NCBI GenBank assembly: GCA_963920765.1
Contig: OY987245.1
Coordinates: 3,612,727-3,676,726 of the forward strand
Direction: 5' to 3'
Length of the DNA stretch: 64,000 nt
From: Ulota crispa
Lineage: Eukaryota; Streptophyta; Bryopsida; Orthotrichales; Orthotrichaceae
Shown here: positions 6,633 through 58,926 of the stretch, piece by piece
Position numbering within the stretch: position 1 is the stretch's first letter
Layout: every line of letters begins with the position of its first letter
The notes under the pieces: model-generated
Database searches by the model: none
What the model was told of the DNA's origin: nothing
The model's input: the letters and a program-made list of their open reading frames with translations, nothing else
Position numbers and translations under genes: made by a program

Positions 6633-7161
6633 TAGAGCATCTCAAATGTTGCACTTAAAACTTGACTCTTCAAGAGATTACACTTGTTTTTGAAGAGCCC
6701 TCAAAATTCTTGTTCTCCACCACTGCACTTCAAACATGGCCCATAAATAGTCATTTGACCAATCACCAAGAAGGACATAGGACAAAATTCACTAAACTTA
6801 ACCCCTGAACAGCCCTTTGCAACCGTATGTACTGTTGTATGTATAAATATATTTGAGGTGCTCTGAGGGCTTTCCAAAAAAAATTATGCACCAACCATCA
6901 TACAACCCTTCAATATATATGGTTGTAACACTTAATTTCCAGCTGATTCAAACTTTTGAATATTGGTGGCGGCCATATTTAGTACCATATCTCCAGAGCC
7001 CAAGGGCCATTCAAAGGTTAAGATGAATACTATTTTGAAGGACCATTGCTCCACACACTAGAATAGAGTGCCATGAGAATATATTGAGGGGCTTAAAGCA
7101 ATTATCATCCATGCTTGAAATGCCGTGTCGAACTTGAGCAGGCAACTCTGGAGATGCTCTT
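6633..7161. mobile_element. GAGCATCTC-ended MITE (family F), copy 1, interrupted
   Basis: Ends are TTAGAGCATCTC on the left and its near inverse GAGATGCTCTTA on the right. The body shares GAAGAGCCCTCAAAATTCT, a block about a TCATTTGACCAATCA sequence, and a CCATTGCT...GCCATGAGAAT block with copies at 16003-16331 and 55385-56920 and with a fragment near 35.2 kb. A 216-bp TTAA element (6802-7017) sits inside. Ends of the GAGCATCTCC type are known from plant MITEs. The superfamily is not fixed because I see no clear target duplication. Confidence 0.7.
6802..7017. mobile_element. Short TTAA-flanked piggyBac-like MITE nested in family F
   Basis: Flanked by TTAA at 6798-6801 and 7018-7021. Left end CCCCTGAACAGCCCTTTGC; the right end inverted reads CCTTTGAATGGCCCTTGGG, alike at about 13 of 19 positions. 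Removing the element and one TTAA gives CACTAAACTTAAGATGAATAC, which lines up without a gap with sister family F copies (CACTAAACTTAGGGTGAATAG near 35245, CACTAAAATTAGAATGAATAG near 16180). This directly supports TTAA as a target duplication and not part of the inverted repeat. No coding capacity. Confidence 0.8.
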
Positions 7162-7481
7162 ATAATGTGACTGTATGAGTACAGTAGTAGCAATTTGACT
7201 AGTAAAGATGCCAAGCAGTTTTAAACTTTTAGTCCAAACTCCAAAGCTAAAATTGCTGGATCCCAAGGCTACTATTTGCAGTTGGCTGCATTCTGCCCTT
7301 GACAAATAACCCCCTATTCCTGAAAGTCAAGTGCAACAAAATATTCATGATAATTCATGCTTCTTAAATATATTTAAGAAAATATATGTTTTATTTGCTT
7401 TCTTCCCTCTCTTTTTCCAGGTCCAAATAAAAGCCAATGATGAGTCAATGATGAGTGGTCTTATCGTTGTTGGCATTACTA

Positions 7482-7610
7482 TGGGCATCCTTCCATGTGA
7501 GGGGTGAATTGGTTAGAGGGGATTTAAAAAAATTTGAACTTTCATTTGACCAATTATTAGTGAACTATAGTGAGTTTCACCGGCCATTCCCCTCACATGG
7601 AAGGACGTCT
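7482..7610. mobile_element. Short inverted-repeat MITE with GGGCATCCTTCCATG ends
   Basis: Left end GGCATCCTTCCATGTGAGGG is matched in inverse by CCCTCACATGGAAGGACGTC on the right, with a roughly 85-bp A/T-rich middle. The same end (GCATCCTTCCATG) is found in the hairpin at 21678-21843, and the CCCCTCACATGGAA side recurs near 43250. It is a small non-autonomous element; the superfamily is not resolved. Confidence 0.7.
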
Positions 7611-7861
7611 TCAGAGGAGATTTGGAGTTGCATTTGTGACCACCATTGTTCAAGGAAATTTTTTAACCATACCTACTACAATCTAGCATGTAGCATTTTC
7701 AACAAGTTTTTCCAAGTATGCACCAAATATTTCCTAAAATTATATTATAATATATTCTAATGAGTTTGTTGTGGAAAATCAAGCTGATTTTTTGTCCAAC
7801 AATTTCAAATTTCAACCAGATTTTTGCAAATTTTATTGGCTAATAATACACTAAATGCTTG

Positions 7862-8009
7862 CACTAGAAGAAAAACGTGTCCTAAACAATTAGTTTACAA
7901 CGACTGCAAATGTCCTAAACAACTATACAATGACTCAAGTCCAATTGAGTCGTTTAGGACATTTGCAGTTGTTGTGAACCAGTCGTTTATTACAAGATAT
8001 CTTCTAGTT
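7862..8009. mobile_element. CACTA-type hairpin MITE
   Basis: Starts CACTAGAAGAAAA and ends with the inverse TCTTCTAGT. The arms pair through ACAACGACTGCAAATGTCC on the left and its near inverse GGACATTTGCAGTTGTTGT on the right, with a short loop containing GACTCAAGTCCAATTGAGTC. CACTA ends followed by AGAAGAAAA are typical of short CACTA-derived elements in plants. A transcript would fold into a long hairpin. Confidence 0.7.
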
Positions 8010-8056
8010 TTGCATGTTATCCCCTAAACCTTGATGACCACAAACACAAACAAATA

Positions 8057-8637
8057 CTCCATATGTCCCTTTAAAAGAGTCCAAAAAGCTTCCTTACAAG
8101 GTATTAATTGTGTTTTTAGTCTTTGTGCTAGCAACACATGCATTCTAGAATCAATACATCATCTACAAAATGTATGTAAAATCTCCAGTTTTGATGTAGC
8201 CGTTTAGGCACCCAAATTCCATGCAAAAAGTACCATATTTGTAAGTAGTTTGTGAATGTTGCCAGCTCCTCATTATTTTAGTCTTTGTGCTAGTGACACA
8301 AGCATTTTAGAATCAATATACCATCTACCAAATGTTTGCAAAATCTCTAGCTCTGATGTTGTTGTTTGAGCACCCAAATTCCATGCAAAAATTACCATAT
8401 ATGTGCATGTTGTCAGCTCCTTATTATTGATGATTTAAAGATTAGTAGCAACAAAGGTACCTCATATGGACAAGGCCAAACTTGCTAGAAGAGGAATGCT
8501 CCATAATCACTTAACTTGCCCCATGAGATCATTGAACATGACAAACGCTTTCTCAACATTTGAAATCAACAAAACGGAGCTATTTATTGGGACAAGAAAT
8601 TTGTATGATTTGGACGTTTGTAGAGGGACAGAGGGAG
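8057..8637. mobile_element. Stowaway-like MITE, copy 1
   Basis: Flanked by TA at 8055-8056 and 8638-8639. Left end CTCCATATGTCCCTTTAAAA; right end inverted CTCCCTCTGTCCCTCTACAA. This is the Stowaway (Tc1/mariner) pattern of plants. An internal tandem duplication of about 160 bp (about 8114-8276 and 8278-8432) contains TTTTAGTCTTTGTGCTAG and GCACCCAAATTCCATGCAAA in both units. Its right part has a close sister at 54289-54412. It carries an intact TTAA at 8511-8514, exactly where that sister is joined to a TTAA element. Confidence 0.8.
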
Positions 8638-8639
8638 TA

Positions 8640-9150: not shown

Positions 9151-9154
9151 TTAA

Positions 9155-10713
9155 CCCCAAAACGACCTTGGAATTTCCTGAGTTTCTAGTAATTTGCTCT
9201 AATTTGAACAAAAAGCCAACATTTTGATAAGTTGTATTAATTATTTCTGAATTGTAACCGTGTAAAAATAAACTAGACATGTTAGAGATCACATTAGAAA
9301 AGAAAACACAACAACATCTCTTATGGAATGAAAGATTATAATGTTTGGTCATGAGGGTGTTAAAATTGTGAAAGTGATTTGAAGTCTTTCAAACTTCTTT
9401 TCACATGTCAAATTTAAAAAGTTGATCACCAAAAAATATGAGGTTAAAGGGCCTAACATGCATAACCCCAATCAATTTATGACTTCTTGAAATCTACTCT
9501 ACAATTTCTTTTTAAATTTTTAACCCCTAAAGCCCCGTTGTCCCCTCGGGGGACAAATGAGAATTTGGGTAGGTACCTACGGCCTCAATTTTGTCCTGAT
9601 TTTTTGAAATTTTTTTGAAGATAGAAAAACACATTAGCTTTTGGCCTTTGGGGAATATAACCGTTATTCCAATGTATGCTTCGTAGCAAAATTTATGCCC
9701 AAATAACCAAATATTTATGGAGATTGGGTTGCAAATTTTTTTTTACAAAAACCTGAAATATTTTTAGAATGTTTTTTCTCATAGTTTATAGTTTTGTCTA
9801 CATCTAAAGCTTTTATTTATTCCATTTGGACTAATTATGAGAAAGTTATGGACAATCTTATTTTTTGGGCAGTTCAAGTATCTTCTTGAAGAAATAACTT
9901 ATAAACTTCATTTTTGAATGCTAGTTTAACATTTTTTTGAAAAAAATTGTTGGAAAGGGTGAGGTTTGCTTTCTAGAACAATCTCACCATTGGAACTATT
10001 GTGTTTTGATTCCATTGGAGGGTTATTAACAATTTAAGTTTTTTTTCAATCTCATACCTTCTTCAACCTAATTTTTTTCTTAAGAATAAAAATTAAGTTT
10101 TTCTAGCTTTGCTTTTTTTCCAAATATTCCCAACTCAATCCCCCACCATAAGAAAATAAACCTCGAAACTCTGTGGTGCAAAAGTTTTAATTCAAGATAG
10201 TTCAAAGTCAAATAATCTAATCATGCAAGGTGTAAAAAAGTTTGTTTTTAACATTTTAAATGCAAATCTTTTGCAGTTTGTGCGGTTAAAGTTTCTAAAT
10301 TTTGTTTACACATTCCTACTCAGGTTTAATACAAGATCCTATAGTTAGATATGGAAAAAGACCATTTTTCAAACTTTTTTACTTTTTGCAATAGAAATGG
10401 CAGTTTTGAGTGTCTTTTGACAAAATCAAAGCCCCAGAGCTTTAAGGATTTGTGTGATTTTTTCTCAAAAATCTAGTCTTTATGAGGCTCATTCCCAAGA
10501 GCCCTTAATACTACATAAAGTGAAAATTGCAATGGACACTCATGCACAAAATCTTGAATAGAAAAATCATAATCAATCATTTGCAAGATTAGAATGCTGA
10601 AACTAAAACTAAACTTCAAAAATAATAAACTACTAAAATAAGAAGTTGATAAGGATTTATTTAATTTCAAAAATTGGTTAAGGACACATTCTGTACTCAG
10701 GGTCATTTTGGGG
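9155..10713. mobile_element. TTAA-flanked piggyBac-like MITE, family C copy 1, split by a nested TTAA element
   Basis: TTAA at 9151-9154 and 10714-10717. Left end CCCCAAAACGACC; right end inverted CCCCAAAATGACC. The two halves (9155-9519 and 10453-10713) match family C copy 2 (52505-53148) across almost their whole length, sharing GTTAGAGAT...CACAACA, GAGGGTGTTAAAATTG, TTGAGGCTCATT or its variant, and a TTGATAAGG block. The 0.9-kb insert 9524-10448 is another TTAA element. No transposase is encoded. Confidence 0.85.
9524..10448 (+). mobile_element. TTAA-flanked piggyBac-like MITE, family A2 copy 1, nested in family C
   Basis: TTAA at 9520-9523. The right target copy has decayed to TTTG (10449-10452) and the right end to CTTTAAGGA. 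Left end CCCCTAAAGCCCCGTTG is followed by CCCCTCGGGGGACAAATG, as in family A. The body matches 55585-56830, including AGATAGAAAAACACATTAGC, TTTTGAGTGTCTTTTGACAA near the right end, and a CCATTTGGACTAA site that is empty here but filled in the other copy. Removing the insert plus one TTAA restores a sequence aligning with uninterrupted family C copy 2 (TTTTAATGTGA here, TTCTAATGTGA there). Confidence 0.85.
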
Positions 10714-11140
10714 TTAAAGCTCCACCCAAGAAAAGGAACAAAAAAAAGGAAAAAACGACTGGACCTTAGTATGTGGAAAAACACACTCATATGGTATAAG
10801 TTACATGTAAGTTTGTGTCACTCAAGGCATAAGAGTTATTTTTTCAAGTACCAAGTGGACTACTTATAAGTAGTCGGTCAACAGAACAATCCATACATCA
10901 TGAACAATTAGATATGGGAAGTTGAGTTCCTTTGACTATGTGATCCATCAAAGCATCAACCTCCCCATTTGAACTTTGGCATTTGGTAGCAGGTCATTGT
11001 GAAGTCATAATTTAAGAAGAAAAAAAGTAAAAATGTTTTAAATGGACGAGAGTTTCGTTGTTAACTTTACAGTGCAATATATTGTGGGTAATTTGAACAA
11101 GGGCTTTTTTACAAGGTCATGAAAACTCGGGGCCAGTTAA

Positions 11141-12201
11141 CCCCTAAAGCAGTAACTATCCCCTCGGGGGACAAATGGATTTTGGGCATGTACCTGTACC
11201 TACAACTAAAGTAGTTTTTGTGAATTTTTGAAACTTTTATTGAAAGTGGGAAATTCAAAAATCTACATGGGTATTTAATTTTTTATTCATTCAAACATTC
11301 AACAAAAAAAAATTCAAGAATTTTTCAAAACTAGGGGAGAAGGAGCAATTTGGGTAGGGCCTCTACTATGGGAACACTGTCAATTTGGTCATTTTTTGTC
11401 AATTAGGATAGGCCACTTAGGACATTTTTTTGTCAATTATGACACTTTTCTGTCAATTTGGACACATTTAGTCAATTAGAACGTGTTAATTCAAACATTG
11501 TTTCAAAAGAGAGCTCTATTTTGTAAGTGGGTGTTGACTCCAAAGAAGGTCAGCTCTTATGGGCATAAGGTGTGAACACATGAGCAAAGGGGTGTGGAGT
11601 GGAAGTGGCCCTTCTTGGAAAACTCCCAACCCTCCACTCCTTCTACCCCTTGTAAAATTTGGTAGTTTAATTTTTTGAGCAATTCGTGTGTTTGTTTTTT
11701 GACTTCCTTTTTTCCAAGTTGTAGAGGACTAACATTCCATGGTTTTCATTGTTTGGATCAAAGTGATTTAGGTTTCTAAATTTTACATAAACCCTCCAAT
11801 TTTGCCTAGTGTGTTTGCAAAATTTATGACCTTTTGGCATTCAAATTGTTTTTGAAGTACTTTGTACACCTCCAGTTCATTTCAAAATTCTCCCACACCT
11901 ATCTAAAAATGTCTTTTGCATGGAGCATTAAACCTCAACTTTGTGTAGAGTAATTTTTTTGCTATAAAAGTGGTCAAAGGCTTTGGACACGGAAAAAGAA
12001 ATCTTCTCTTTAGATCTCAATACCTCACTCTTCTTCATCTGAAACGAGCTGATTTTGTTTCACAATGCCTCTCATAGTTTAGGGCAAGGTCCTATGGTTG
12101 GATTTTTGAAGTATCTCTTTTCTTGCTTTTCTACTCATCCCCCAAAAGTAACAATTTTTAGCCACTTTTACAAAAACAAAAAGGGCTTGGTCCTCTAGGG
12201 G
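11141..12201 (+). mobile_element. TTAA-flanked piggyBac-like MITE, family A copy 1 (full length)
   Basis: TTAA at 11137-11140 and 12202-12205. Left end CCCCTAAAGCAGTAACTATC, right end GGCTTGGTCCTCTAGGGG. The left part shares CCCCTCGGGGGACAAATGGA and TTTTGGGCATGTACCT with copies at 33586 and 47421. A GTGTTGACTCCAAAGA block and a GAGTGGAAGTGGCCCTTCTT block match the copy at 47421. Between these lie about five degenerate 20-bp units of the type TGTCAATTNGGACA (11388-11489). There is no open frame of transposase size. Confidence 0.85.
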
Positions 12202-12205
12202 TTAA

Positions 12206-18999: not shown

Positions 19000-19865
19000 T
19001 GTACAGTACCGGGAAGTAAACATACGTACTGTCCCCTTTTGGCAGTGAAAAACTTGCCTAAAACTTGCATGATATAAAGTATAATTGCCACTTTTTTGTT
19101 GTGCATCACAATTTTGTAATTTTTATGTAATCCCAAACAAGCATGCCAAATTTTAGTTTCAAAAAATCTAAACTCCATTTTTAATGATTTTTTTGGTATC
19201 AAATTCATGATTTGTACATGATAATTGATTGAAAAACATTGGTGATGAATTTTTCAGATTTAATTGTATGGGTGTATAGATATCATCCATATGCACATCC
19301 TCCGTGCTAAAAAGAAGCCTCTTAAGCAACAAAAATGTGATCTTCAAAGGATTTAGTCAATTTTAGTGTGACTTGTGATATGTCCAAAATTTTGTAAAAT
19401 AGTTATTTTTATTTTTGAACTTTTTTCTCACCAAGTAAACATAATATCATGTTCAAAACCACAAACTTAGTCACAATGTATGAGTCAAATAGCAAAAGTT
19501 GATAATCATACATAAATATTTGTTTTACAAAATTTTGGACATATCACAAGTCACACTAAATCCTTTGGAGATCACATTTTTGTTGCTTAAGAGGTTCCTT
19601 TTCAACATGGAGGATGTGCATATGGATTTTACCTATACACCCATGCAATTAAATCTCAAAAATTCATCACCAATGTTTTTTAATCAATTTATCGTGTACA
19701 AACCATGAAGTTGATACAATAAAATCATTAAAAGCGGAGTTTAAGTTTTTTGAAACTAAAATTTGGTATGCTTGATAAAAATTGCATAAGGATTACAAAA
19801 TTATGAAACACAGCAAAGAAACTGCCATTTATATTGGTGCGTATGTTTACTTATGGGTACTGTAC
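19000..19865. mobile_element. Large foldback element (family I)
   Basis: Ends TTGTACAGTACC and, in inverse, ATGTACAGTACC, followed on both arms by AAGTAAACATACG. Arms of about 370 bp pair nearly end to end: left TTTGTGATATGTCC-type sequences at 19370-19395 return as GGACATATCACAAGTCACAC at 19537-19556, and CAATGTTTTTTAATCAATTT mirrors GATTGAAAAACATTGGTGAT. The spacer is about 110 bp. The inner part TGATGAATTTTT...GATTT is shared with the foldback at 50608-52356 and with sequence near 53220. No transposase frame. Confidence 0.8.
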
Positions 19866-20168
19866 ATTTATACTCTTCTAATTATGAGTGCTTGAAACAA
19901 ATCTAATGGCTATATGATTGTGACAAAATTTTGCTTTTAATTCTAAAAACAAAATCTAATATGAAAGGTTTGCAATGCACTCATCACATAAATTTCTTAG
20001 TACTAGCACCTTCAAAATTAGCTTAAAATGTTGAGTTTTACCAAAGAAAACTCATATACGGTCAAATGTGAATCATTTATGAAAGTACAAAAATAGAGTT
20101 CAACCACCTTAAGAAATCTTCCTAAAACCCATAATTCAAATATGTATAGTTTCTTGAGCTATAATTAA

Positions 20169-21021
20169 TCCTTAAAGGTTTGTGCATCCAAAAAGTGAGT
20201 GCGCCTTGGTCAACCCTAATTGTAACTTTCAAAATATTAATTTTTGGTACGTAGTTCAAATTAAGAAAATGAAGCTTGACAAGTTTCCTTTCTATTCCAT
20301 TTAATTTTTTGAAAAATGCCAAAAATTGAAAGAGTTATTGCCATTGAAAGCTCCAAGTATTAGAATCCAAATAACACAATATGGTCTATTTTTCATTCAT
20401 ATGTTCTACTCTTTAAATTCATTTTAAATACAAACTACAAAACTATGTTTCTCATTCTATCATTCATTTATGAGAGAAATTATAAATTTTTTAAATATAT
20501 ATTATAATTGATATGATTTTATTTCCACATTTAGTTTTAAAAAATCACATAATTCAAAATTTCCATCAAATTTATTGAAAAAAAACAACGTAAATAGAAA
20601 ATGAATATGACTTCTAGTAAAAAATATTAAAACTTTATAAACTAATTAAACATGAGGATAAACTTGGTTTGATAGTCAAATTTGACTTTAAATTCTTTGT
20701 TGTGGCTGTTTTGGGTGTGAAAAATAAAATAACCTATTGAAAAAATTTCTCACTAATCTTTAAAACTACATGTACCTCTTGAAACCATTTCAAGGAATTG
20801 GGATTTTTTTTGCTATTTTGACTTATTTATGTTCATTTTTTGAAAAAAAATGATAACTATTACAAATTTACATGAAACAAATTGAAATTTCTTGCAGTGA
20901 TATATCATTCATAGTTTCAGGTAATAAAAATATGAAATTTTTGTTTGAACACACTTTAAAAGGCATAATTAAGCTTAAACATGAAGTTTGACCATTCAAA
21001 ATGGATCAAGTCCTTTAGGGG
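20169..21021. mobile_element. TTAA-flanked piggyBac-like MITE, family B copy 3
   Basis: TTAA at 20165-20168 and 21022-21025. Left end TCCTTAAAGGTTTGTGCATC, right end inverted CCCCTAAAGGACTTGATCCA. The right end resembles that of 28068-28961 (CTTGATCCATT). The interior is very A/T-rich with no open frame. Confidence 0.7.
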
Positions 21022-21183
21022 TTAATGCTAATCAATCCACAAATGGTTTTAAATTTAATCATCATCCATTATTTTGGTGTGATTAATACTTGATATAAGA
21101 AATAATTTCCTATTTTTTCACTTGGCAAAGTGCATTTTGTGTTAAAATTGTTTAGATCTATGCTTCCTCAATTCTTTTCCTCT

Positions 21184-28063: not shown

Positions 28064-28067
28064 TTAA

Positions 28068-28961
28068 CTTCTAAAGGAGGGTTTTTCAAAAAACATTGTC
28101 AAAAATTGCGTTTTTTTTTAATGTTGATCAAAATGAAAATTGAAACTTTTAATTGAAATTTCATAAAAATTTCAGCCCATTTGACCCCGTGGATTGTAAG
28201 ATTATAATGTTTGAAGTGAGAAAAACAATCTTTTTTCATTCTTGTAAAATAAGGTCATCAGACTTTGAGCCCTCTTAGACTAAATATTTTGCTCTACATA
28301 AAATTAAGATTTTTGACAGTTTGTAAGTACATAATGTTAGGTTCACTCATGAAAAGTTTCAAAAGCAAAGATAGAATCTAGCTTATTCTAAATCACCCTC
28401 CAATGTAAGGAGATTTAGTGAATTGGCATTACATTGATCATTTTTTCATGATTTCTTGTGCAATGAAGAAGTTTTTTGTTTGAAATCTGAACATTAAAAA
28501 AGTTAGAGAAAAACATTTGAAATATGTGAAAAGCTTTAGTAAATTTCAATTTTTAAATTGCAAGATAATAGGGTTTGAAGTTAGAAGAAAATATTTTCTC
28601 CTAAAATTTCCTAGATATAGTTAACAAAGTTTGACTCCTCTTAGAATATGATTTGAGAGCTCGTTTTTTAAAATTGTTTACCGTATTTTCTTAGTTACAT
28701 ACATGCCAAATTTCAAAAGTTGATGAGATTCTTAGCATAAGATTTTCCAAAGATACCTAAATTGCCCTAGCTACCCTAGTTCTTTTGGATAGCATAACTT
28801 TTGAATTGGGCATCCCATTGGGAAAAAAATTACATTTCCACTTAAAAAAATACATATTTACAACTTGTGTAACAATTTTGAGAACATCCAATAAAAATTA
28901 ACTTCATATGACCCTACCCAAGTTCTCAAGTGTGTTGAATGGAAACTTGATCCATTACGGG
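28068..28961 (+). mobile_element. TTAA-flanked piggyBac-like MITE, family B copy 1
   Basis: TTAA at 28064-28067 and 28962-28965. Left end CTTCTAAAGGAGGG, right end inverted CCCGTAATGGATCAAG. The ends are more diverged than usual, but the body aligns throughout with 57968-58922: CAGCCCATTTGACC, GTTTGAAGTGAGAAAAACA, TTTGCTCTACA, AATGAAGAAGTTTTTT, and AAAATTAACTTCATA near the right end. Confidence 0.75.
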
Positions 28962-29131
28962 TTAAATTCGGGAGTTGTTGGTTACAAGCGTCATGCACTA
29001 TAGTTATTCCAGATTTAATTGTCATGATTAGCTTGAGTGGTTATAATCACATTTAAAACATGACGAAGACCTCAAATTAATATTAAGGTATTGCAGAAAA
29101 AGGGGTAATTTTTGTACTTTATTTTACCCAG

Positions 29132-29640: not shown

Positions 29641-31239
29641 AATCTAGATTATTATTATTTTTGGCAAATTTTGCCTAAATCCTACCCTCGATTTGACACT
29701 AGTTACCATACAACTAAAAACAATTGAGTGCAAAAATGGATGAAACTGCCAAAAATCCTCCCGAACATACACCATGGTTACCAAATGTTGGATGAAAGTT
29801 ATTAGTATTGGTGAATTTTATGGATGAATGTACACACTGTTTGATTCTATCCATATTTTCCTTACTTTCTTTCATTATTGGGTGCATGTTGCTTTACCAA
29901 CCCAAAAAAAAAAACTTGCTCAAAACATAGGAGAAAATTTTCTCCATTTTACTTTTAAATTAGTTATTTTAATCTCAAAAATTGCCAACATCTAGAATGC
30001 AAACAATTCATGACTTCAAACACTTGTTAGAATGGCATGAAAAAATGAAGTTCATCCAAGTATTTTTAGAATTCAGTTTCTAATTATTCTTCAATAGTGA
30101 GACTATTTTGAAAGTTGGTTGTTTTATGATTTTTATATTAAGATATGAATAATTTCATGTAGATATTAAAGAAAAAGAAAAAATTGCAAAAATTAGGATT
30201 TGTTTTTGAAATTTACTTAGACTATTGTTTATTTTACCTTTAAAGCTTTACATCTACATGCTACCCACCTATCTCATCATTGTTAGGGATTACAATCAAA
30301 CATGTCAAAGTAGTGCAAAAATACAATTAACCTTTGTAAGAAAAAGATTTGCGTAAGATGACTGTCCGTGTCGGTTGGAGGAGCTACAAGGGCTGTTTGG
30401 CTATAATGAATGCTTTCCTAAAATGAAAAGAATAATTTTTCCAAATACTTTTATCTTAACTAGACACTAATGTACTAGAGGCTTTGCCTCTAAAGCACTT
30501 GCTTACTTATTAAATAATGTATCTATTCAAACTTCTTTAACCCATTAAGAATTGTGGTTGATTTTGAGGGAGGGCAATCCTTTGTTTAGACAATTGGGGG
30601 CAATTGTAAATTTTTTGAATGCAAGTGCCTATTGGAGATCTAATCGTTGTCCTGATGGAGATCTCTTCATGATGTAGATATTCGTTATTTATTTTTATTT
30701 GTATTGATTTCAATAAATCAACAGTTGTGACAAAAGGGGTGGTCGTGGTAAGGACCACGGTTTGGTGACAGCGCAGCGGTCATAGATTCCAATGCATTGC
30801 GCCGTCTTGTCACATGCACAATTTATAGGGATAGGTAGCGGGTTGGTTGGGCCAATTTCCTGCCCCACTAACTGCCAAGCCGTGGGCCGCTACCAGTGCT
30901 TGACAAGTCCAATGAAGTTTGAATCCGGACAGGCGGGCGGCCAAAGACGATCGCTTTTCCAGCCATCCAAGTCCACGACTTGGCGACTGAAGACAAGCAT
31001 TTGATGCTATTATATGCCCGCAAGAGCACATTGCCACTTTACGATGGTGTTTATTTTGTAATTTAATCATTTTTATATGTTTATCTAGATGTTTTCAAAG
31101 ATTCATATATTTTACCTTTGTTTGAATAAAAAATATTAAGGATTTAGAAATGAATGAAAAATGTGTAAAAAGAAAAGGGTTTTGGCATCTATGATGGGAT
31201 TAGGATAGAGAAGGGCATGAGCTGATGTGCCCTACCATC
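29641..31239. other. Intergenic stretch with a less A/T-rich pocket
   Basis: Mostly A/T-rich filler. 30740-31010 is richer in G and C and unique-looking (CACGGTTTGGTGACAGCGCA, GGCCGCTACCAGTGCTTG). Overlapping open frames on both strands there, of 70 to 86 codons, resemble no protein I know, so no gene is called. Confidence 0.4.
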
Positions 31240-32210: not shown

Positions 32211-32680
32211 CTTGTTATTTGTGATTTTCCTCATTGTTTTTATTAAAACATGAAGACTTGAAGACATGAAGACTGAAGATCTGAAGACCGAAGACAAAAA
32301 CCGAAGACAATTTTAGTCAGCACCGCACAATCACAGCAAGACACCCTGCGTGTTCCCAATGCGCGCTTCTCTCAACCCAACACCGTACGGATGGAAGTGT
32401 TGCACATGATATAAGGTTTTGCATTAAATTTTTTGGTGAAGGTGCATTGTGAAATAAGAATTTTTAGCAAATCTTGGTGTAATTTTAGTTTGTACTATTT
32501 TGGTTTTTTCAACCCTCTAGCTGCATGTCACTTTAAATTGGCTTGGTTATTGTCCTAAACTCTTCACTTCCTAATTCTCCATACTTATCCTTTTTACTAC
32601 ATCATCAAATTCGTTGACATGCTCCCTCTACAAACCAAAAAAGACCTAAATTGATTCCAGGATGGTTGACCAGTCTTTAA

Positions 32681-32881
32681 CCTCTAAACGCCCAAGGGGT
32701 AAGGGCAAAATATAGATGCATTATAATATGATACTTATGTAACTTTGATTAAGTTTGCTTCTAGAAAGAAGACTTGATTTTCTATTTACAGATTTTTTTA
32801 AATTTTAAATTTTTTTTTCATCTCATATAATTCGCAAAAAATGGGCAGCGACCAAAAAATGGTCAATAGAGCACTTAGGGG
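32681..32881. mobile_element. Short (201-bp) TTAA-flanked piggyBac-like MITE
   Basis: TTAA at 32677-32680 on the left and TTGA at 32882-32885 on the right, one mismatch. Left end CCTCTAAACGCCCAAGGGG, right end inverted CCCCTAAGTGCTC. A/T-rich middle without coding capacity. Confidence 0.65.
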
Positions 32882-33029
32882 TTGATGGATTAAGAGAGCT
32901 TCTAGAGATGCAAAACCTCCTTCCATGTAGTCCATAAAATGGTCTAAATTGATGAAATCAAAGTAAAGCAAAATGCATTTAAACAATTCTCCTATTTACT
33001 CAAGTAATTATATTCCTCTTGCTAGAATG

Positions 33030-37377: not shown

Positions 37378-37381
37378 TTAA

Positions 37382-38299
37382 CCCCTAAAGCACTGAACCC
37401 CCTTTTTTGGCAACATAGCAATTTTGGGCAGATTGCTACCAATGGGATTTTCATTTTTTTCTTTGAAATTTTCACACATGATGTGCCCAAGGAGTAGCTA
37501 TAAGGCCCAACAATTTTCATAACTTTTGACTTCAGGGTTCAAAAGTTATTGCATAATATGTAGTTTTCTTTGCTAGGGGGCAGACAAAAAACTTCTTTAA
37601 AAATTACGTTATTTGGATTTTGCTTTTGGAAATTGGTTCTTTAGATTTATATATACTTGGGAAGCTTTGAGTCATTCCATTTTTATCAATGAGATGAAAT
37701 TTATGAGGAGATTTTGTTTGCAGGCAATTATGAATTCTCTACTCTAAAATAAACTTTGAAGTCCATTAATTTACTCAAGTTTCAATGTTTTTGAAGAAAA
37801 ACAAAACCAACAGATGTAGATTTTTTATCACAACATTATAACTATTGGGATTGGAATTATTCATTTCCATAATTAAGTTCTTAACAATTTAGTGGTTTGA
37901 ATCATTCTCTACTTCTTTTTACTTACTATTTTTTTTCCATGTGTTGTACAATTCCAAATGATTTGAAAATTTTCAAGTGTGTACCTAACTTGATTTGAAG
38001 AACAAATCCAAAAAATTACAACCATTTTGAAGTTTTTTTCATACAATTATGACCTTGTGAAGTGCAACTGCCCGGGTCTTTGCAGAGACAAAAAATGGCT
38101 TTTTGTCAATTCAAACTCAAATATCTAACAATCTACATGGTAAAAACTCCTGAATTTTTTTCACATCTTTTGATACTAGTGTAGTACTAGATCTTACGGC
38201 TACATTTGTCAAAAAACAAAGTTCTTCTAAAACTTGGTACTTGTACTAGACATGTTTTGGAGTGGTTTTGTTGAAAATTTGAGCTTAGTGCTTTACGGG
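37382..38299 (+). mobile_element. TTAA-flanked piggyBac-like MITE, family A copy 4
   Basis: TTAA at 37378-37381 and 38300-38303. Left end CCCCTAAAGCACTGAACC, right end inverted CCCGTAAAGCACTAAGC. The middle and right parts match 33586-34508 (GGGAAGCTTTGAGTCATTCC, TCTACTCTAAAATAAACTTT, TGATTTGAAAATT). The left 100 bp have been replaced or have diverged compared with family A copies 1 and 3. Confidence 0.85.
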
Positions 38300-38430
38300 T
38301 TAATCGCTTCCTTTTTATCTAAAGGTCTCCTAACACAGTGTTTTACAGTGCGGGTGGAGATGCCCTAAAACACAAAGGTCCACAATAATTTAACCGCGGA
38401 ATGTTGTGGTGAATTTCTTTTCACACGCAG

Positions 38431-39546: not shown

Positions 39547-39648
39547 CTTGGCCCCGCTCCCCATTTGCAACACCCTTGCTCCCCATTTGCAACATCCTTG
39601 CTCTACCCACATGATTCTGCTTTCAACCTTACTTCCCTAGTAACTTAC

Positions 39649-40446: not shown

Positions 40447-40655
40447 TTAAGGACCAACTTCCATGGGCAACCTGAATTGGGAAAGCTAACCACAAACTCG
40501 TTATGAAATCTTGTATGGAAGTGTACTAGAAAACAATAGAATCAAAAATTGGAAATGGTGTTCATGAAAACTTCTAGGGAGAAGCACAATAATTTAGGAG
40601 TTTTGGTCGTTGATATTGTTTAGACTCTTGGTCACTCTGTGATGAGCTTCTTTAA

Positions 40656-41404
40656 CCCTTGAAGGACAATTGTCCCCTTGGGGGGACAAATGGGATTTTG
40701 AGCATGTACTTATAGCTAAACTATTTTGTGTGATTTTCTAAAACTTTTTTGGACAACGGGGAATTCAAAAATTTGTGTGGGCATCTAATTTTTTCTTCAT
40801 TTCAACATTTATTGAAGAAGTTTTGCAAGAATTTATCAAAACTAGGGGTAGAGGGGCACTTTAAGAAGCCCAACTTTTTTTAAATTGCATTTTTTAGTAT
40901 AAAATTCTGAAATTGGTTTTTTAGATTTATATATACATGGGAAGCTTTGAATCATTTTGTTTTGATTGATGAGATGAAAGTTATGACTTATGAGAAGTTT
41001 TTGTTTACAGGCAAGTATGGTTTTGATAAACTCCATAACTACTCGTAAAGTAAAACTCTTCATAACTTTCATCTCATTAATTTATATCAAATGATTCAAA
41101 GCTTTCAGGTACGTATAAATCTAAAGAACCAATTTCAAATTTGTAGTTTAAAAAAAAAAGTTTAAAGAGGTTTTTTGGGCTGCCCAAATTGCCCCTACCT
41201 TGGCCCCTCCTTCTTTAGTTTTGATAAATACTTGCATAACCTCTTCAATAAATGTTAGAATGAAGAAAAAATTAGATGCTCATGCAAACATTTGAATTTC
41301 CCATGTTCCGTAAAAGTTTCAAAAAATCACACAAAATAGTTTAGTTGTAAATACATGCCTAGAATCCCATTTGTCCCCTTGAAGGAACAATGGCCCTTTA
41401 GGGG
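40656..41404. mobile_element. TTAA-flanked foldback derivative of family A
   Basis: TTAA at 40652-40655 and 41405-41408. The right half is a near-complete inverted copy of the left. Left CCCTTGAAGGACAATTG, GGGGGACAAATGGGATTTTG, CTAAACTATTTTGTGTGATT and TTTATCAAAACTA all return in inverse on the right, as do the inner GGGAAGCTTTGAATCATT and GATGAGATGAAAGTTATGA. Arms are about 350 bp with a short centre. It appears to be two family A left halves joined tail to tail. Internal open frames are not coding. Confidence 0.85.
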
Positions 41405-41408
41405 TTAA

Positions 41409-47220: not shown

Positions 47221-47420
47221 TTGCCTCATACTATTTGCTTGACATTCACACTACATTAAATATTCATTTCATTACCACAATGTTGGTTGCTTTTGTACAA
47301 AACTCTTTTAATTGTAAACAATCACAAACAAATCTTGAATCTTAATTTTATATCTTGTCGTGACAATTGAGAAAGTGATTCATTTTATAGTCACGGCAAT
47401 CTATATCAAAAGCAATTTAA

Positions 47421-48085
47421 CCCCTAAAGGCCCAATTGCCCCCTTGGGGGACAAATGGATTTTGGGCATGTACTTACAACTAACCTACTTTGCGTGATTT
47501 TTTAAAACTTTATTGAAAGTGGAGAATCAAAAAACCTATGTGGGCATTAGTTTTTCTTCATTTTGACATTAAACAAAGAAATTATTAAGAAATTGCTAAA
47601 ACTATGAGAGAAGGGGCAGTTTGGACAAGGCCTCTCCTTTGTAAGTGGGTGTTGACTCCAAAGAGGGTCAACCCTTATGGGCAGAAGGTGTGAACACTTG
47701 AGCAAAGGGGAGTGGAGTGGAAGTGGCCCTTCTTAGGAAACTCCCAACTCTCCACTCCTTCCACCCCTTGTTTAATTTGGTACTTTAACATTTTGAGCCG
47801 TTTGTGTATTTGTTTTTTAAAATGTTTTTTTTTGAATTGTAGTGGGCTAAGGTTCCTTGATTTTTACTATTTGGATAAGAGTAATTCAAATTTTTGAATT
47901 TTACATAAAGCATCCACTTTTTGCCTAGTGAGTCTACAATATTCATGACCTTTTGACATTTAAATACTTTTTGAAGTATGTTGTACACCTCTAATTCATT
48001 TGAAAATTCTCCCACACATACATAACTTGATCATCTACATGGAGTAATTAAACCTCAACTTTGTGTAGAGCAATTTCTTTGCTAT
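47421..48085 (+). mobile_element. TTAA-flanked piggyBac-like MITE, family A copy 6, right end lost
   Basis: TTAA at 47417-47420. Left end CCCCTAAAGGCCCAATTGCC, then GGGGGACAAATGGATTTTGG. It aligns with 11141-12201 through GTGTTGACTCCAAAGA and GAGTGGAAGTGGCCCTTCTT up to CAACTTTGTGTAGAGCAATT. Similarity stops near 48085, about 230 bp before the expected right end. It is the best-kept example of the left end. Confidence 0.8.
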
Positions 48086-49032
48086 CAAAATAAAACAAAA
48101 GATTAGTGTGACTTATTCTTATAATGAAATGCAACAGTCAATGTTAGAACATAAAGGTATCTTACTAGTATTATAAAACTTAATATGTTTTAACACAAAA
48201 AAGTGAAAGTACCTCTATCTATTTGTGTTTGACTTCAGTGCATGTTTTATAGAAATGGGAACCTATTGTAAAGGGTAGTTTACTATCTCCTGAAAAAGGC
48301 CAACCACTCGACTGGGAGAACTTGAAGAAAAAAAAACCAACCAAAGGCCAATCAAAAAATCCCATCCTGCCAAATAGACCCCCTGCAGTTGGTAGACAAA
48401 AATAAATGAAGAAAATCGCCCTGCTAGTGCAGATTTCAAATAAGTTATCCCTTATTGTCTGCAAGGCGAATTGATATCACACAAATACAAGTAAGCTTTT
48501 GGGACAAGTTGGGATCTTCTCACAATCACCAGTCTCAAATTACTAAACCAATGAAATAATGTGACCAATGAAATAATGCCACTTATACCCCCTTTCAGTT
48601 TTAGCTGAATGTGTACCCCAATTAATTTTCCATGTGCACATGATTCTAATTGATTTTTGCTTTTGCGCGTGCCCTTACTATGCACTCAAAGACACAGTAA
48701 CATATACTCCCTCTACAACATGGTCATATAATTTGACCACACAAATCAATTGTACCTCACTCCTGTCAAATATGGTTAAGAAAATTAAGAAACGTAGTAA
48801 AAAAAAAAACATTTGTAGTGGCATTTTTTTGCAATTATTTGAAAATTAAAAATGAGATTATGACATTGATCCAAATCTATTTATTTTGGGATAAATCTAT
48901 GAAAATCACATAATTAGTTCAATAGACAACATCTTATTGCTGTGACGTTAAACATCATGGTCTCTTGGAATTTTATCAAATCAAAGAAACACGTGGAAGC
49001 TATGTTTATTGATGTAATCGCATGTCAAAGAA
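48086..49032. other. Intergenic stretch, nothing identified
   Basis: No gene supported. TACTCCCTCTACAACATGG at 48705 looks like a lone Stowaway-type end without a partner. Confidence 0.4.
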
Positions 49033-49036
49033 TTAA

Positions 49037-49810
49037 CCCCTGAGCGCCCCAAAGTCCCATATATGGCCTCCCTCAATTTTAAAGCCTTGTTTTGAGGGAC
49101 TGGATTTAACTTTTTGATCTTGCTATAAACTACAATTATGAAAGTATTTAAGTTGTCCATGCTAATGGAGTAATGGCAGTTGAAGTCAATTGTTGTACAA
49201 GTGTTACAAGAGACTTGATTGGGTGAAACACCATATTGGGAGTGGTGGCAAGCATACAGGGCGTGGGGCAAGCAACTTTTTAGAGGTTGCAACCGGTCAA
49301 TACCCCTTGCAAGCTTCCTTGTGTAAGCTTTGTGGTAGCCAGAAAGTTGTTGGCAAGGGTTCAAGCATGTCCTAGACCCTTATTATGGCAACTGTCACCA
49401 ACTGTGCCAGTCATTGTTTTCTGTGCAATAGCAATTTGAAGCTCTAAAACTTGACATAAAAAGAAGTGCAATCTTTAATAATTTACAAGTGCGTGCATTC
49501 ACATCTAATCTTGTTACTCACAAAATTTGAGATGGATTTGGGACTTACATAATTTTGTAAAAATCATCAAATAGCAAATACCTACCAAAAAATGAGATTT
49601 TGTTGTCACATGTTGTTTGATCAAATGTTATAATCTCCCATATTTTGGAGTGAATTGTTCCCAAAATTTTCAAGCCATTTTCTAAGTAGGTGTTCCACTA
49701 CTTTCAATGGTCACTTTTTGTGGATCACCTGATTGACCGAGGTATGATGCATCAAAGTTGTCGGTCTCCAAAAACCCTGATTTTGATGGAAATGGCCTTG
49801 CGCTTAGGGC
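49037..49810. mobile_element. TTAA-flanked piggyBac-like element with CCCCTGAGCGC ends
   Basis: TTAA at 49033-49036 and 49811-49814. Left end CCCCTGAGCGCCCCAAAG, right end inverted GCCCTAAGCGCAAGGCC. The interior is not related to families A to D. The 127-codon reverse frame at 48981-49364 crosses the left end and is not protein-like. Confidence 0.7.
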
Positions 49811-52379: not shown

Positions 52380-53397
52380 TGCTCTATTATGCCATTTAAA
52401 GAATTTTGCATAACATATAATAGAATTAAAATTTTATTGTTTTGCACCATTGGTGTTTACTTCTTGTGTAATCCCCATCAAGCATACCAAATTTTACCTC
52501 TTAACTCCCAAATGCCCAAGGCCTTTCTGAATTTCTTGGCATTTTCCTAAAATTGCACAGTCAATCAACATTTTTATAAATTTCATCAATTATTTTTCAA
52601 TTGTAACCATACAAATTTAATCTAAACATGTTAGAGATTACATGGAAAAATAAAACACAACAATATCATTTATAGTTTGAAAGATTATAACGTTTGAACT
52701 TGAGGGTGTTAAAATTGCAAAAGTGACTTGAAGATTTCTAATCCTCATTTTAGATGCCAAATCTAAAAAGTTGGTTACCAAAAAAATAGGAGGGTTAAGG
52801 TCATTACATGTCTAACTTTAATCAATTTATGGCTTTCAAAATCTACTCCTATATATTTTTAATATGGATTTCTAATGTGAACTTTTCTCCAAGCTCTAGT
52901 GTATTTGAGGCTCATTTTCAAGATCTTCCAACATTAGAAAACCCAAGATTGTAGTGGACACCCTTGTACTAAATCTTGAGTAGAAAAATCATCAACATTC
53001 ATGGTCAAAACTAGATTTTAGGTGTTGAAAATAAACTTCAAAACAAACTTTTATTGAAAAAAAAAATCTATAAATAATGATTTGATAAGGTTTTATTCAT
53101 CTTCAAAGTTTTGTAAACACCCAAATTGGGTGCCTTGGGCATTTAGGGTTAAGAATCAAACTTTACATTTGGTGAATAATTTTATATAAAATTCACAATT
53201 TTACATGATAATTAATTAAAAAATACAGGTGATGAATTTTTGAGATTGGATTGCATGGGTATGTAAGAAGCATCCATACACACATCTTAAGTTTCATGAT
53301 TCCTTCTATAGAGATTTTAATTTTAGAACAATTATGACCAAATTTTGTGAAATGGTTAATTTGGTGGGTAATTAAAATATCCTATTTTACTTGCCCA
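52380..53397. repeat. Diverged foldback-family sequence hosting a TTAA element
   Basis: ATCAAGCATACCAAATTTTA (52475) and, after the inserted TTAA element, GAATCAAACTTT...ACATGATAATTAATTAAAAA...GGTGATGAATTTTTGAGATT follow the order of the left arm of the foldback at 19000-19865. Only one arm is recognisable. It was interrupted by the element at 52505-53148. Confidence 0.5.
52505..53148. mobile_element. TTAA-flanked piggyBac-like MITE, family C copy 2 (uninterrupted)
   Basis: TTAA at 52501-52504 and 53149-53152. Left end CTCCCAAATGCCCAAGGC, right end inverted CCCTAAATGCCCAAGGCACC. It aligns over its length with 9155-10713 minus that copy's nested insert and provides the empty site TTCTAATGTGA. 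Confidence 0.85.
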
Positions 53398-53401
53398 CTA
53401 A

Positions 53402-54284
53402 CCCCTAAATGCCCAAGGGTGTTTTTCTTGTTTTTAGAAGGCAGTTTTGAAGTTTTGGATTGTCCTTGTAAGATCATTCTCAAACATCAAAACAAGATGG
53501 TAACCCTTGAATCTTGAACTTCATGGCTTCTAGATGGCGCTACCTAAAAATAATCCAATATGGCCAAGATGGTTTTAAGATATTTGTGATTGAATGATGA
53601 TGAGTATAGATTTTTTTGCTTTTTTGGAGCTGCCCAAAACTTCTAATGCAAATTGGCAACTTATGGATACAAAATTGGGAAACAACTACATAGGGTGCTT
53701 TAGTGTTTATTTTTGTTACTTCAAAACTAATGGCCTCCATTCCAAATCCATGACCACAATTTCACAAACAAGTTTGCAATGCAATTATCAAAGCGCAATT
53801 GCCTAGTACAAAGAAATTTTAGCTTCAATTATTGACTAAAAATCATTATGAATGAAAGAAAATTCAATAGTGAATGAATTCTAATTTTTATAACAAAGAC
53901 ATTCCAAGTGAAACTAATCTAGAAGCACTTTTAGATTTTGTTAAATGTCAAAATTTTAGTAAAAAGGCCCTTACTACCCAAGGGGGTGCCCAAGGGAAAT
54001 CTTCACCTTTCCCTCAATTTGATGCTTGTTTTTTCAATGTGACAACTTGTCATATGACCAAGTTCATGACACTATTCATGACACAAAATGTGTGCTTGCA
54101 GTTGACCTTCCACCAAAAAAAATTGGAATAAGATATGGAAGAAGTTAAATTTGAACAGTGAAACTATGTTCAAAGCGCAACTTTTCCAAACAAAAAAACC
54201 TAAAAAAAAGGTGCTTTTAAGAGGGTTTCAAAGTTCCTTAAAGTTTTTTGGATACCAAAATCTAGTGCCTTGGGCATTTAGGGG
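53402..54284. mobile_element. TTAA-flanked piggyBac-like MITE, family D
   Basis: CTAA at 53398-53401 and TTAA at 54285-54288. The first 17 bases of both ends are identical: CCCCTAAATGCCCAAGG. Its right flank TTAACTTGCCCCCATGAGAT matches the inside of Stowaway copy 1, where the same TTAA is unoccupied (8511-8514). The left flank does not match that element, so the left side was lost or rearranged. Open frames inside are not recognisable. Confidence 0.85.
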
Positions 54285-54288
54285 TTAA

Positions 54289-54412: not shown

Positions 54413-54425
54413 TATGATTTAAGCT

Positions 54426-55384: not shown

Positions 55385-55584
55385 GAATGCCTTACTTGCC
55401 AAGTTTGACTTGTTAAGAGATTACATCTATTTTTGAAGAGCCCTCAAAATTCTTGTTTCCCACCTTGCTCTTCACAAGTGCCCCATAAAAAATCATTTGA
55501 CCATTCATCAAGAAAAATACAAGATAAAATGCACTAGCCCAAGATGAATAGTGTTTTTGAAAGGCCATTGCTTTGACACTTTAA

Positions 55585-56830
55585 CCCCTAAAGGACCATT
55601 GTCCCTACGTGGGACAAATGAAATCTTAGGCAAGTACCTACGGCTGCAATTTTTATCTATATTTTTTGAATTTTTTTTCAAAGATAGAAAAACACATTAG
55701 CTTTTGGGGATCATAATTTTTATTCCAATCAATGCCATTGAGAAAAAGTTATGCCCAAATAAGCACAAATATGGGGAGTCTAGGCAGCAAAATTTCTTAT
55801 ACAAAAACTTGAATTTTGTTTTAATTTTTTTTCTTGTAGGTTATATCTTTTTCTAAATTTGAAGTTTTGATTCATTCCATTTGGACTAAGGTGGGAAGCT
55901 CATAAATGGAGCATTTAAGGGCTCAAATTGAGTTTTGGGTAGGTGAAACTTCTTGGAATATTTTTCAGTAAAATTTCCTTGAAAGGCAAGAGGAAATGGC
56001 ATCTTACCAAAGATGTTCATCTTTTTTGGAGCTTTGTGGACTTAATTATGAAATTTTGAAGTGGAAAGGCCATAGAGCTAGAGCACCTCCTCAAATGTAC
56101 ATGACCTATATATTGTTGAAGGATTATGAAAAAGAACATGTACAAAATTAATACATTTGAGGAGGTGCTCCATTTTAGAGCCTACTCCAAATTAGAGCCT
56201 CCTACCTTAGTTACAAGAAAGTTATGGACAATCTTGTGTTTTGGACATCTCAAGCATCTTCTTGAAAAAATAACTTATAAATTTCATTTTTGAAAGTAAG
56301 TCTAACATTTTTGCAAAAAAAGACTGCTAGAAAAGGTGAAGTTTGCTTTCTAGAGCAATCTCACCATTGAGATTATTGTGTTTCAATTCTATTGCAAGGT
56401 CATTAACAATTTAAGTTTGTGTTCAATCTCATAGCTTCTTCTATCTAATTTTTCTTCAAAGAATGAGAGTGAAAATTAAATACTTTTTGTTTTAATTTTT
56501 TTCCCAAGATTCCCAACTCAACTTCCCACCATAAACAATAAGATTCCAAACTTTGTGGTGCAAAAGTTTTAAGTTAAAAAAGTTCATAGTCAATTAATCT
56601 AGTGATGCAAGGTGCAAAAAAACTTGTTTTTACACTTTAAACGCAAATGTCTTGCAATATGTGGGGTCAAAAATTTTGATTTTTTTTTCACACATTCTTT
56701 TACTAGTCTAGTACAAGATTCTATAGTCAAATATGTAAAAGGACCAATTTTCAAACTTTTCTACTCTTTGCCATAAAAAGGGCAATTTTGAGTGTCTTTT
56801 GACAAAATAAAGGCCATGGTTCTTTAGAGA
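55585..56830 (+). mobile_element. TTAA-flanked piggyBac-like MITE, family A2 copy 2, nested in family F
   Basis: TTAA at 55581-55584 and 56831-56834. Left end CCCCTAAAGGACCATTG, right end inverted TCTCTAAAGAACCATGG. It matches 9524-10448 throughout. The length difference from that 925-bp copy is accounted for by the 317-bp MITE at 55890-56206 plus a few target-site bases. Confidence 0.85.
55890..56206. mobile_element. 317-bp MITE (Tourist/Harbinger-like), copy 2, innermost of a three-level nest
   Basis: Starts GGTGGGAAGCTC and ends GAGCCTCCTACC. The uninterrupted family A2 copy reads CCATTTGGACTAATTATGAG where this one reads GGACTAA-element-TTAGTTAC, so a TAA/TTA three-base target is likely, though the two sides are not identical. 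Same length as and homologous to 24001-24317 in reverse orientation. Confidence 0.8.
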
Positions 56831-56920
56831 TTAAGATAAAATGCCATGAGAATATTTTGAGGGGTTTGAAGCACTTATCATCCAAACCATGCAAAGGGCA
56901 ATGTTTGGGTGCTCTTGAAG

Positions 56921-57293
56921 AGTCCTTAGTCAAGGCACACATAAGTGCTCCAACAACAACAAACATAGGTCCAAGGTATGTGTGTGATTCATGTAGCAAC
57001 CTCCGTAAGGAATTTGAAGTCCCAATACGCAATTGGATCTAGAATTGCTAAGGACATAAAAGCATGTGGTCAAGAAGGCTCATTGTAGGAGGGATGGAAG
57101 GAGCTATTAAAGAATCAATTGCACTTGCCCAATTAGACTAATATTGACCACATCTCCAAGCTATGCAAATTTCCTCTAAGTGCAAGCTTGGATAGCTCAT
57201 GAGCCAAGGTTGTGAACTTCTTATCTAGCTTTGTGGTCAAATTGGGGACAATTTTCCCTACACTTCAACCATTGTTACTATATTATAGTACAT
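56921..57293. other. Intergenic stretch, nothing identified
   Basis: Unique-looking. Short frames on both strands around 56857-57042 overlap the family F right end and are not recognisable. Confidence 0.4.
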
Positions 57294-57302
57294 TTTCATC
57301 TT

Positions 57303-57701
57303 GGGAATTGATATATGTATCACCCCTTTTTGACTATTCTATCACATCTACTATATATGGTCAATATTTATAATATTAAAGTAGGTGTGAACCAGTGGAA
57401 GAACATCACTAATATGAAAATACAACTTAACATAAAAGTTGCAGCTTTAATTTTGTTAATTAGCTTTGGACTCCACTCATAGTATCAATTAAAAATCTAA
57501 ATTATGCTTAATTTCATTTAGGTTGTTTTGAATTGATACTATGTGTGGGATCATGAGTTAAATAAATAAAGTTGTAACCTTTATTGTAGAATTAGTGATG
57601 TTTTGCATGTGGTTCATATCTACTTTAATATTGTAAATATTGACCATATATAGTAGGTGTGGTAGAATAGTAAAAAAAAGGTGATACATATATGAATTCC
57701 C
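57303..57701. mobile_element. Mutator-like MITE with a perfect 9-bp target duplication
   Basis: Direct repeat TTTCATCTT at 57294-57302 and 57702-57710. Left end GGGAATTGATATATGTATCA, right end inverted GGGAATTCATATATGTATCA. Arms continue for about 90 bp (ACTATTCTA, TACTATATATGGTCAATATT, TAATATTAAAGTAG) and weaker pairing extends further in (AGTATCAATT with AATTGATACT). Nine-base duplications with long inverted ends are the hallmark of MULEs. No coding capacity. Confidence 0.85.
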
Positions 57702-57967
57702 TTTCATCTTGGATGGACTACGGGCATATGTCCTGTGTCCAATTCTACAAGTCCCAATTTGATATCACTTCCCAACATTTTGTGTTTGTTTTTAAACGGC
57801 AAAAATAAATGTCTATGAAAATAGAGTGAAAATATTTTATGCAGTAAAATAATATTAGGAATTGGTTTTCAAGTTGAGTTTTTGTTTTGGTACATACAAC
57901 TCTTAGGCCAAAGTCCCACGTTTTGGTGCCAAATTTGTTTAAAGTGCTACCATACATGCACTTTTAA

Positions 57968-58922
57968 CCCCTAAAGCCTGACGGGGGTGGCAGAGAAAAA
58001 TAAGACCGAAGCTGCCATTTTTTGATTATTTACTTAAATTATTGTTATTATATTTTGATTTTCAACTGTACAAAAGAGTAATATACAAGTAAGGCAATGT
58101 GTGAAAAAAAAAACCAGCCCATTTGACCGCGTAAATTTTAAGGTTATAATGTTTGAAGTGAGAAAAACACCTTTCTTTTTATTCTTGCAAAATTAGGTCA
58201 GCAGACTTCTAGTCCTCCTAAAGTAAAATTTTTGCTCTACACAAAAACAAGATTTCTGACCATTTACAAGTATTTAATGTTACGTCCACTCACAAAAAAT
58301 TTCAGATGCAAATATAGAATTTAGTTTATTCTAAATCACCCTACAATGCAAGGAGGTTAAATGAATTGGCAATACATTAGTCATTCTTTCATGCTCTCTT
58401 GTGCAATGAAGAAGTTTTTTATATGAAATTTGAATAGTGAAAAATTAGAGGCAAACATTAGGAATATGCAAAAAAAAATTCAAGAGCTTTAGATATATAG
58501 ATTGAAAGATAATAAGGCCTAAAGTTAGAAGAAAATATATTTTCTAGAAACTACCCAAACATAGTTTGACTCCTCTTAGAATGTGGTGTGAGAGCTCAAT
58601 TTTTTGTTTTGTTTTTTACAATTGCATACCATGTTTTATTATTACATACAAGCCAAGTTTCAAAAATTAATGAGAGTTTTAGCAAAAGATTCTCTAAAGA
58701 TGCCCAAATTGCCTAAGGTGCCCAAATTCTTTTGGGTAGCATAACTTTTTACTTGAACATTCTATCAAAACTAGGTTTTTTATTTTATTTATTTTATTTT
58801 CACAAAGATATTCATTGTGTGCACCTTATCTCCAAATTTCAAAACATCATCCAAAAATTAACTTCATAGGAACCTACTTGAACTATTAACCAACTGTTGA
58901 ACAAACTTTTGTGATTTAGAGG
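57968..58922 (+). mobile_element. TTAA-flanked piggyBac-like MITE, family B copy 2
   Basis: TTAA at 57964-57967; right flank decayed to CTAA (58923-58926) after ATTTAGAGG. Left end CCCCTAAAGCC. It aligns with 28068-28961 in order from CAGCCCATTTGACC to AAAATTAACTTCATA. The left 100 bp are unlike that copy and contain ACGGGGGTGGCAGAGAAAAA. Confidence 0.75.
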
Positions 58923-58926
58923 CTAA

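Follow-up and report, generated by a model that had tools for sequence, protein, structure and literature searches.

The question raised by this locus is what kind of transposon gave rise to the short repeated elements that crowd it. The stretch analysed, hereafter the window, comprises 64,000 nucleotides (G000:C4:3612727-3676726) of a 274.8-Mb assembly in 157 contigs, and its elements start with TTAA-CCCCTAAAGG or near variants and carry the inverse at the other end. They are short and non-coding, have inverted ends and occur in many copies, which are the features of miniature inverted-repeat transposable elements (MITEs). The original prediction, made from the window alone, placed them in the piggyBac superfamily, and this assignment held: TTAA flanks such ends genome-wide, and longer partners with ends of this kind encode a DDE_Tnp_1_7 transposase with a DDD triad. 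With a probability of roughly 94%, the elements are non-autonomous piggyBac MITEs, relatives of 5-6 kb piggyBac elements, and derive from several sources.

The ends are abundant far beyond the window. The exact 14-mer TTAACCCCTAAAGG occurs 15,411 times in the genome (7719 + 7692), its reversal only once (1 + 0), and a degenerate motif spanning several end types occurs 20,924 times against 4 in its control. CCCC begins all 15,411 exact ends, in keeping with the inverted ends beginning CCY that characterise piggyBac. Within the window, 24 left-type and 16 right-type sites match the 14-mer with at most 3 mismatches. A position-weight end profile (score of at least 12, trained on the same sequences that it scans) detected 25 window ends and a further 35 in sixteen 10-kb stretches taken at round genome coordinates (L013-L028, 160 kb), versus 0 in the reversed control; 6 of the 16 stretches contain no end. 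In the window and these 160 kb together, exact ends number 11 and ends found by the profile 60, and a rough estimate on that ratio (15,411 x 5.5, from a small base and with patchy copies) puts the ends at about 84,000, which would amount to perhaps 40,000 elements and around a tenth of the genome.

The target duplication is the 4-bp TTAA. Of 82 end-like sites in L001-L028, 71, 68, 61 and 66 retain the expected base at the four successive TTAA positions, and position -5 is random. Genome-wide, a test set beforehand gave the same answer: of 16,065 ends that match at the other 13 bases, 15,411 (95.9%) start with T and 654 with another base. Automatic pairing of ends in the window and 20 further stretches (L009-L012 among them picked for motif density) returned 37 pairs. 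Both sides have TTAA in 25 of these, another 8 of the 12 left over differ from that by one base, and the reversed sequence returned none. Furthermore, in a single case of nested insertion, L020:8672-9637 lies within an element of the family termed B, the flanks of which, when joined with one TTAA, align end to end to other B copies; the window B copy at 9151 is free of this insert and shows just one TTAA at the corresponding position, a paralogous empty site. The conserved TTAA, the pairs and this empty site together establish the duplication.

Genes for a matching transposase, mostly decayed, are present in the same genome. A profile search of the 274.8-Mb assembly for DDE_Tnp_1_7 (Pfam PF13843; 116 of 528 candidates scored) matched at least 120 stretches, with a best E-value of 1.3e-73 among the matches listed; the 14 control genomes gave no match. 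Some 20 kb upstream of the window, at C4:3591922, is one such copy. The 476-aa (amino acid) frame of one locus, L029, matches the solved structures of piggyBac (6x67, 4e-20) and piggyBat (9c0f, 6e-17). D268 and D346 of 6x67 align with D212 and D297 of L029, the third D (D411) lies in a motif common with 9c0f, and these three residues we take to be the catalytic DDD triad. A cysteine-rich C-terminal domain is a piggyBac trait; Cys/His-rich C-terminal tails were recognised by eye in the translations of L033, L035 and L037, and that of L033 aligned with P0001, P0003 and P0014. The nearest proteins in a set of 5.8 billion were 16 sequences, at most 69% identical over partial length, all with PF13843. 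The genes are diverse: L029 and L031 are 62% identical, each is 34-39% identical to L030 and L032, L033-L037 share only about 30-47% with L029-L032, and L036 and L037 are close (63% in DNA). No tblastn match to the L029-L032 transposases was found in the window or in L001-L028.

Nine transposase loci (L029-L037) were examined for ends, with end pairs assigned by eye. In three of them the transposase lies between two TTAA-flanked ends 5.2-6.0 kb apart:

L034, 1219-6872, 5654 bp: ends CCCCTCAACACCCC and TCCCTCAACGCCCC, TTAA-flanked.
L035, 694-5923, 5230 bp: ends CCCCTTGAGGGCTA and CCCCTTGAGGACTA, TTAA-flanked.
L037, 681-6690, 6010 bp: ends CTCCTAAGCGCCC and CCCCTAAGCACCC, TTAA-flanked.

The ends on transposase-bearing elements are CCC, CTC and TCC variants, and none of the loci examined carries the canonical motif exactly at both ends. 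A right end only was found in L029, L031 and L033, and the last 200 bp of L031 are 67% identical to a 409-bp MITE (L023:1169-1577).

A tie between transposase and canonical end is provided by L033, whose right end is TTAACCCCTAAAGGCCCAAG, the canonical form. Its last 595 bp, here called the arm, are 73-76% identical to at least 39 other genomic places (40 of 1728 candidates scored, self included), and a complete 893-bp MITE in L010 is among these relatives. The best three other matches of the L033 transposase DNA (67-70%) lie on contigs C10, C1 and C8, and all three copies (L042/L045, L044, L043) have the arm of about 600 bp downstream in the same order. L044 keeps a canonical-type end, CATTTAGGGGTTAA, behind a CACTA-like insert, whereas the arm end is decayed in L045 and cut off by another element in L043. 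The insert itself (L044, about 630-810, some 180 bp) starts with CACTAGAAA, ends with TATAGTG, has a 3-bp GCA duplication and resembles a CACTA-type MITE. The spacer that separates transposase from arm (L033:6225-6560) is found again in part at four other places, past the edge of the MITE, and at one of these, on C8, it lies downstream of a transposase copy. The possibility that the L033 right end belongs to a mere MITE neighbouring the transposase was therefore rejected, because the same arm and order are found in three more copies and the spacer recurs. Separately, a 620-bp microsatellite with in-frame HTYI repeats follows the transposase frame within the L033 element (L033:5572-6192).

Transposase genes enclosed by related ends, together with the arm downstream of the transposase, lead to the conclusion that the elements are piggyBac MITEs. 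The expectation that a partner with these ends would encode DDE_Tnp_1_7 with DDD was thus borne out by L034, L035 and L037 between variant ends, and by L033 with its canonical right end and arm. Several points nevertheless weigh against this reading. Both ends could not be demonstrated in six of the nine transposase loci: within the fetched stretches, no left end was found for L029-L032 and L036, and no end at all could be assigned in L030, L032 and L036. In L033 the left end is absent from the 4 kb upstream, where the only TTAACCC-type end belongs to a separate MITE and BLAST matches to MITE left arms are weak and noise-like. The distance from transposase to spacer is 3.6 kb in the C8 copy versus 1.1 kb in L033, a gap for which an insertion would account; moreover, the list from the arm search lacked all three arms and that from the spacer search lacked the C1 and C10 copies, which were found on fetching. 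For family A of the window the exact parent was not found; the similarity of this family to the L033 arm is only about 59-64%. As to the target site, two of five other B copies have no TTAA at the L020 site and two of five have it one base off; at the second nested element, window 9520-10445, four B copies can be aligned with the joined flanks (69-75%), but the empty site is unreadable and the B homologues have no aligned TTAA. Finally, 110 of the 120 listed transposase stretches carry internal stop codons and only 10 are free of them, and hence most of the matched copies look dead.

These points have to be set against the alternatives. The elements could belong to another TTAA-duplicating superfamily, Kolobok or Sola3, with the piggyBac genes as bystanders, and TTAA duplication by itself does not separate these from piggyBac. 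A paper on Kolobok mentions TTAA 23 times (PMC6004289). However, related ends enclose DDE_Tnp_1_7 (the only profile sought), and the arm lies downstream of the transposase in L033 and three further copies, which makes such an origin very improbable. Fewer grounds still remain for Stowaway-like (TA) or Tourist-like (3-bp) MITEs that merely prefer a TTAA context, although these types are among the common plant MITEs in the available text of a plant survey (PMC12550479). Neither the TA duplication of Tc1/mariner Stowaway elements nor the 3-bp TAA/TTA duplication of PIF/Harbinger Tourist elements is seen here; a 4-bp palindromic TTAA is kept on both sides, its four bases are conserved alike with nothing beyond them, the outermost T is present in 95.9% of the 16,065 ends, and a paralogous site has one TTAA. 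This explanation is refuted.

The origin of the MITEs as piggyBac derivatives can be pictured as follows. They most likely arose by internal deletion and are related to 5-6 kb piggyBac elements of the same nuclear genome, whose transposase would bind the inverted ends CCCCTAAAGG...; an element would be excised and then inserted at TTAA with duplication, a cut-and-paste process of which the sequence outcome and the shared arms are observed. Relatives of the L033 arm extend into the adjoining spacer to differing depths, a pattern that independent internal deletions giving rise to MITEs would produce. The ends of transposase-bearing elements vary at positions where MITE ends vary too, so that CCCCTAAAGG, the end common to them, is read here as a family resemblance. 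Several diverged lineages with slightly different ends coexist, and the many MITE families would thus follow several sources; judged from these sequences, more than one source is most likely. The original suggestion of one transposase mobilising many cargoes found no support, since transposases only about 30-47% identical coexist, end variants differ and some MITEs match the arm of one lineage.

The copies compared look old. Identity among 11 family A copies ranges from 54 to 86% (median 69%), with end columns 96-97% conserved versus 79% inside, and there is no sign of a recent burst among these aligned copies.

The host was approached through its plastid sequences. Contig C157 (112.5 kb) has the order atpB-rbcL-trnR(CCG)-accD-psaI-ycf4 (rbcL and the tRNA identified by tools, the others by eye) and also carries psaA/psaB. 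A trnR(CCG) at this plastid position argues against an angiosperm, and the host is taken to be a green plant outside the angiosperms, most likely a bryophyte, as genome size and the 11 large contigs suggest. The earlier description of the locus as that of a land plant is accordingly likely from plastid gene order, which does not separate moss, liverwort and streptophyte alga. True piggyBac MITEs in a streptophyte alga or other green organism, with a less surprising host range, are an unlikely but serious alternative: the plastid gene order and trnR(CCG) are common to bryophytes and some streptophyte algae, but the nuclear contigs (C1-C11, each between 41 and 6 Mb long, make up 271 of the 274.8 Mb) and the 112.5-kb plastid contig fit a bryophyte. 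Taken together, the data make it reasonably probable that this is a bryophyte in which piggyBac is the leading DNA-transposon class and several diverged lineages, all with end variants and crowds of MITEs of their own, have long coexisted and come to occupy about a tenth of the genome. Two further observations concern plastid DNA. Forty-six of 48 psaA/psaB matches lie off the plastid contig, as fragments on C1-C10, and are many nuclear plastid insertions. On the 122-kb contig C97 (118101-118300, L040), plastid rbcL (122/122 bases identical to C157) abruptly joins GC-rich-looking sequence, through chimeric assembly, contamination or transfer.

In the window, 13 elements with both ends were recovered, 12 outer and 1 nested (9520-10445), together with solo or weak ends at 6798, 17120, 30537, 39645, 47417, 49033 and 52045. 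The motif and its inverse do occur in the range first given, 6798-58926, and the presence of many such elements was as predicted; the count of 17 was not reproduced, a difference that the solo and weak ends may explain. The 12 outer elements sum to 10,983 bp, or 17% of the window, and three (32677-32885, 53398-54288 and 57964-58926) have one altered TTAA base on one side. The 37 automatically paired elements span 79-1342 bp, 24 of them 639-966 bp, although nesting led to some false pairs (9520 was joined to 10717; its true partner is 10445). The predicted distinct internal families are real, with clusters of 19, 5, 3 and 2 members plus 8 singletons. The features are as follows, with a strand given only where one was assigned:

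9151..10717: family B MITE, about 640 bp minus insert; left TTAACCCCAAAACG, right TTAACCCCAAAATG; split by nested 9520-10445.
9520..10445: family A MITE nested in B, 926 bp; left TTAACCCCTAAAGC; right end decayed, TTAA at 10442-10445.
11137..12205: family A MITE, 1069 bp; TTAA on both flanks.
20165..21025: MITE, 861 bp; TTAATCCTTAAAGG ... CCTTTAGGGGTTAA; no sample match covers it.
28064..28965: MITE, 902 bp; TTAA on both flanks; 71% to MITE L033:1115-1959.
30537..30647, + strand: solo end TTAACCCATTAAGA; matches the right end of transposase-bearing L031 (113 bp, 71%).
32677..32885: short MITE (209 bp) with TTAACCTCTAAACG on the left and TCAACCCCTAAGTG on the right.
33582..34512: family A MITE, 931 bp; TTAA on both flanks.
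37378..38303: family A MITE, 926 bp; TTAA on both flanks.
40652..41408: 757-bp MITE related to family A; its inverted arms of 206 bp are 82% complementary.
47417..48104: truncated family A copy; left end perfect, homology to about 48104, right end not found.
49033..49096: element end TTAACCCCTGAGCG, 64 bp; 72% to the left end of transposase-bearing L037.
52501..53153: family B MITE, 653 bp.
53398..54288: third-family MITE, 891 bp; CTAA at left flank.
55581..56834: family A MITE, 1254 bp.
57964..58926: fourth-family MITE, 963 bp; TTAA altered by one base on the right; 76% to L033:1116-2041.

Adjoining elements in the sample stretches have one TTAA in common at L010:862-865, L010:7086-7089 and L011:1414-1417. 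The idea that new insertions target element ends was dropped, as on a rough reckoning random choice of TTAA gives as many shared sites. Other repeats also occupy the window. Inverted arms (113, 158 bp and more) at 50608-52355 bracket 50918-52045, which has the right end ATAACCCCTGAAGG and no TTAACCC end on its left side, at 50918. A long nested inverted repeat at 18997-19835, with arms 80-94% complementary and up to 11 overlapping sample matches, has no TTAACCC-type end. A 22-bp minisatellite (39138-39302; 7.5 copies, 99% match) has a second short array of similar unit nearby (39556-39603), and 93- and 98-bp tandem repeats at 61745-62341 overlap a 179-aa open frame. Rfam gave no matches in the window.

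A long-lived plant piggyBac community would make descent from green-algal ancestors versus horizontal transfer testable, and native plant piggyBac ends and enzymes may serve for seamless excision. In the available text of the open-access literature no report of piggyBac as a major plant MITE class was found. The plant MITE survey cited above (PMC12550479) lists five superfamilies in its available text, and the main text of a 207-genome plant MITE survey has no mention of TTAA or Kolobok; given this silence, elements of a TTAA superfamily might be overlooked or assigned to the wrong group. A repeat table for the fern Ceratopteris richardii, as available, gives PiggyBac 1230 copies and 0.00% (PMC6890710), so that this land plant has it at trace level, whereas here it makes up about a tenth of the genome on the rough estimate and the ends can be linked to a transposase. 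MITEs of two coral genomes are likewise treated with piggyBac and TTAA in the accessible part of that report (PMC2872659), but the present elements are in a plant host, have 15,411 exact ends and are long for MITEs. Like piggyBac of Trichoplusia ni (6x67) and piggyBat (9c0f), the system described here combines DDE_Tnp_1_7, a DDD triad, a Cys-rich tail, TTAA duplication and ends starting with CCC; unlike them, it has a distant protein (4e-20 and 6e-17), elements of 5-6 kb and a green-plant host.

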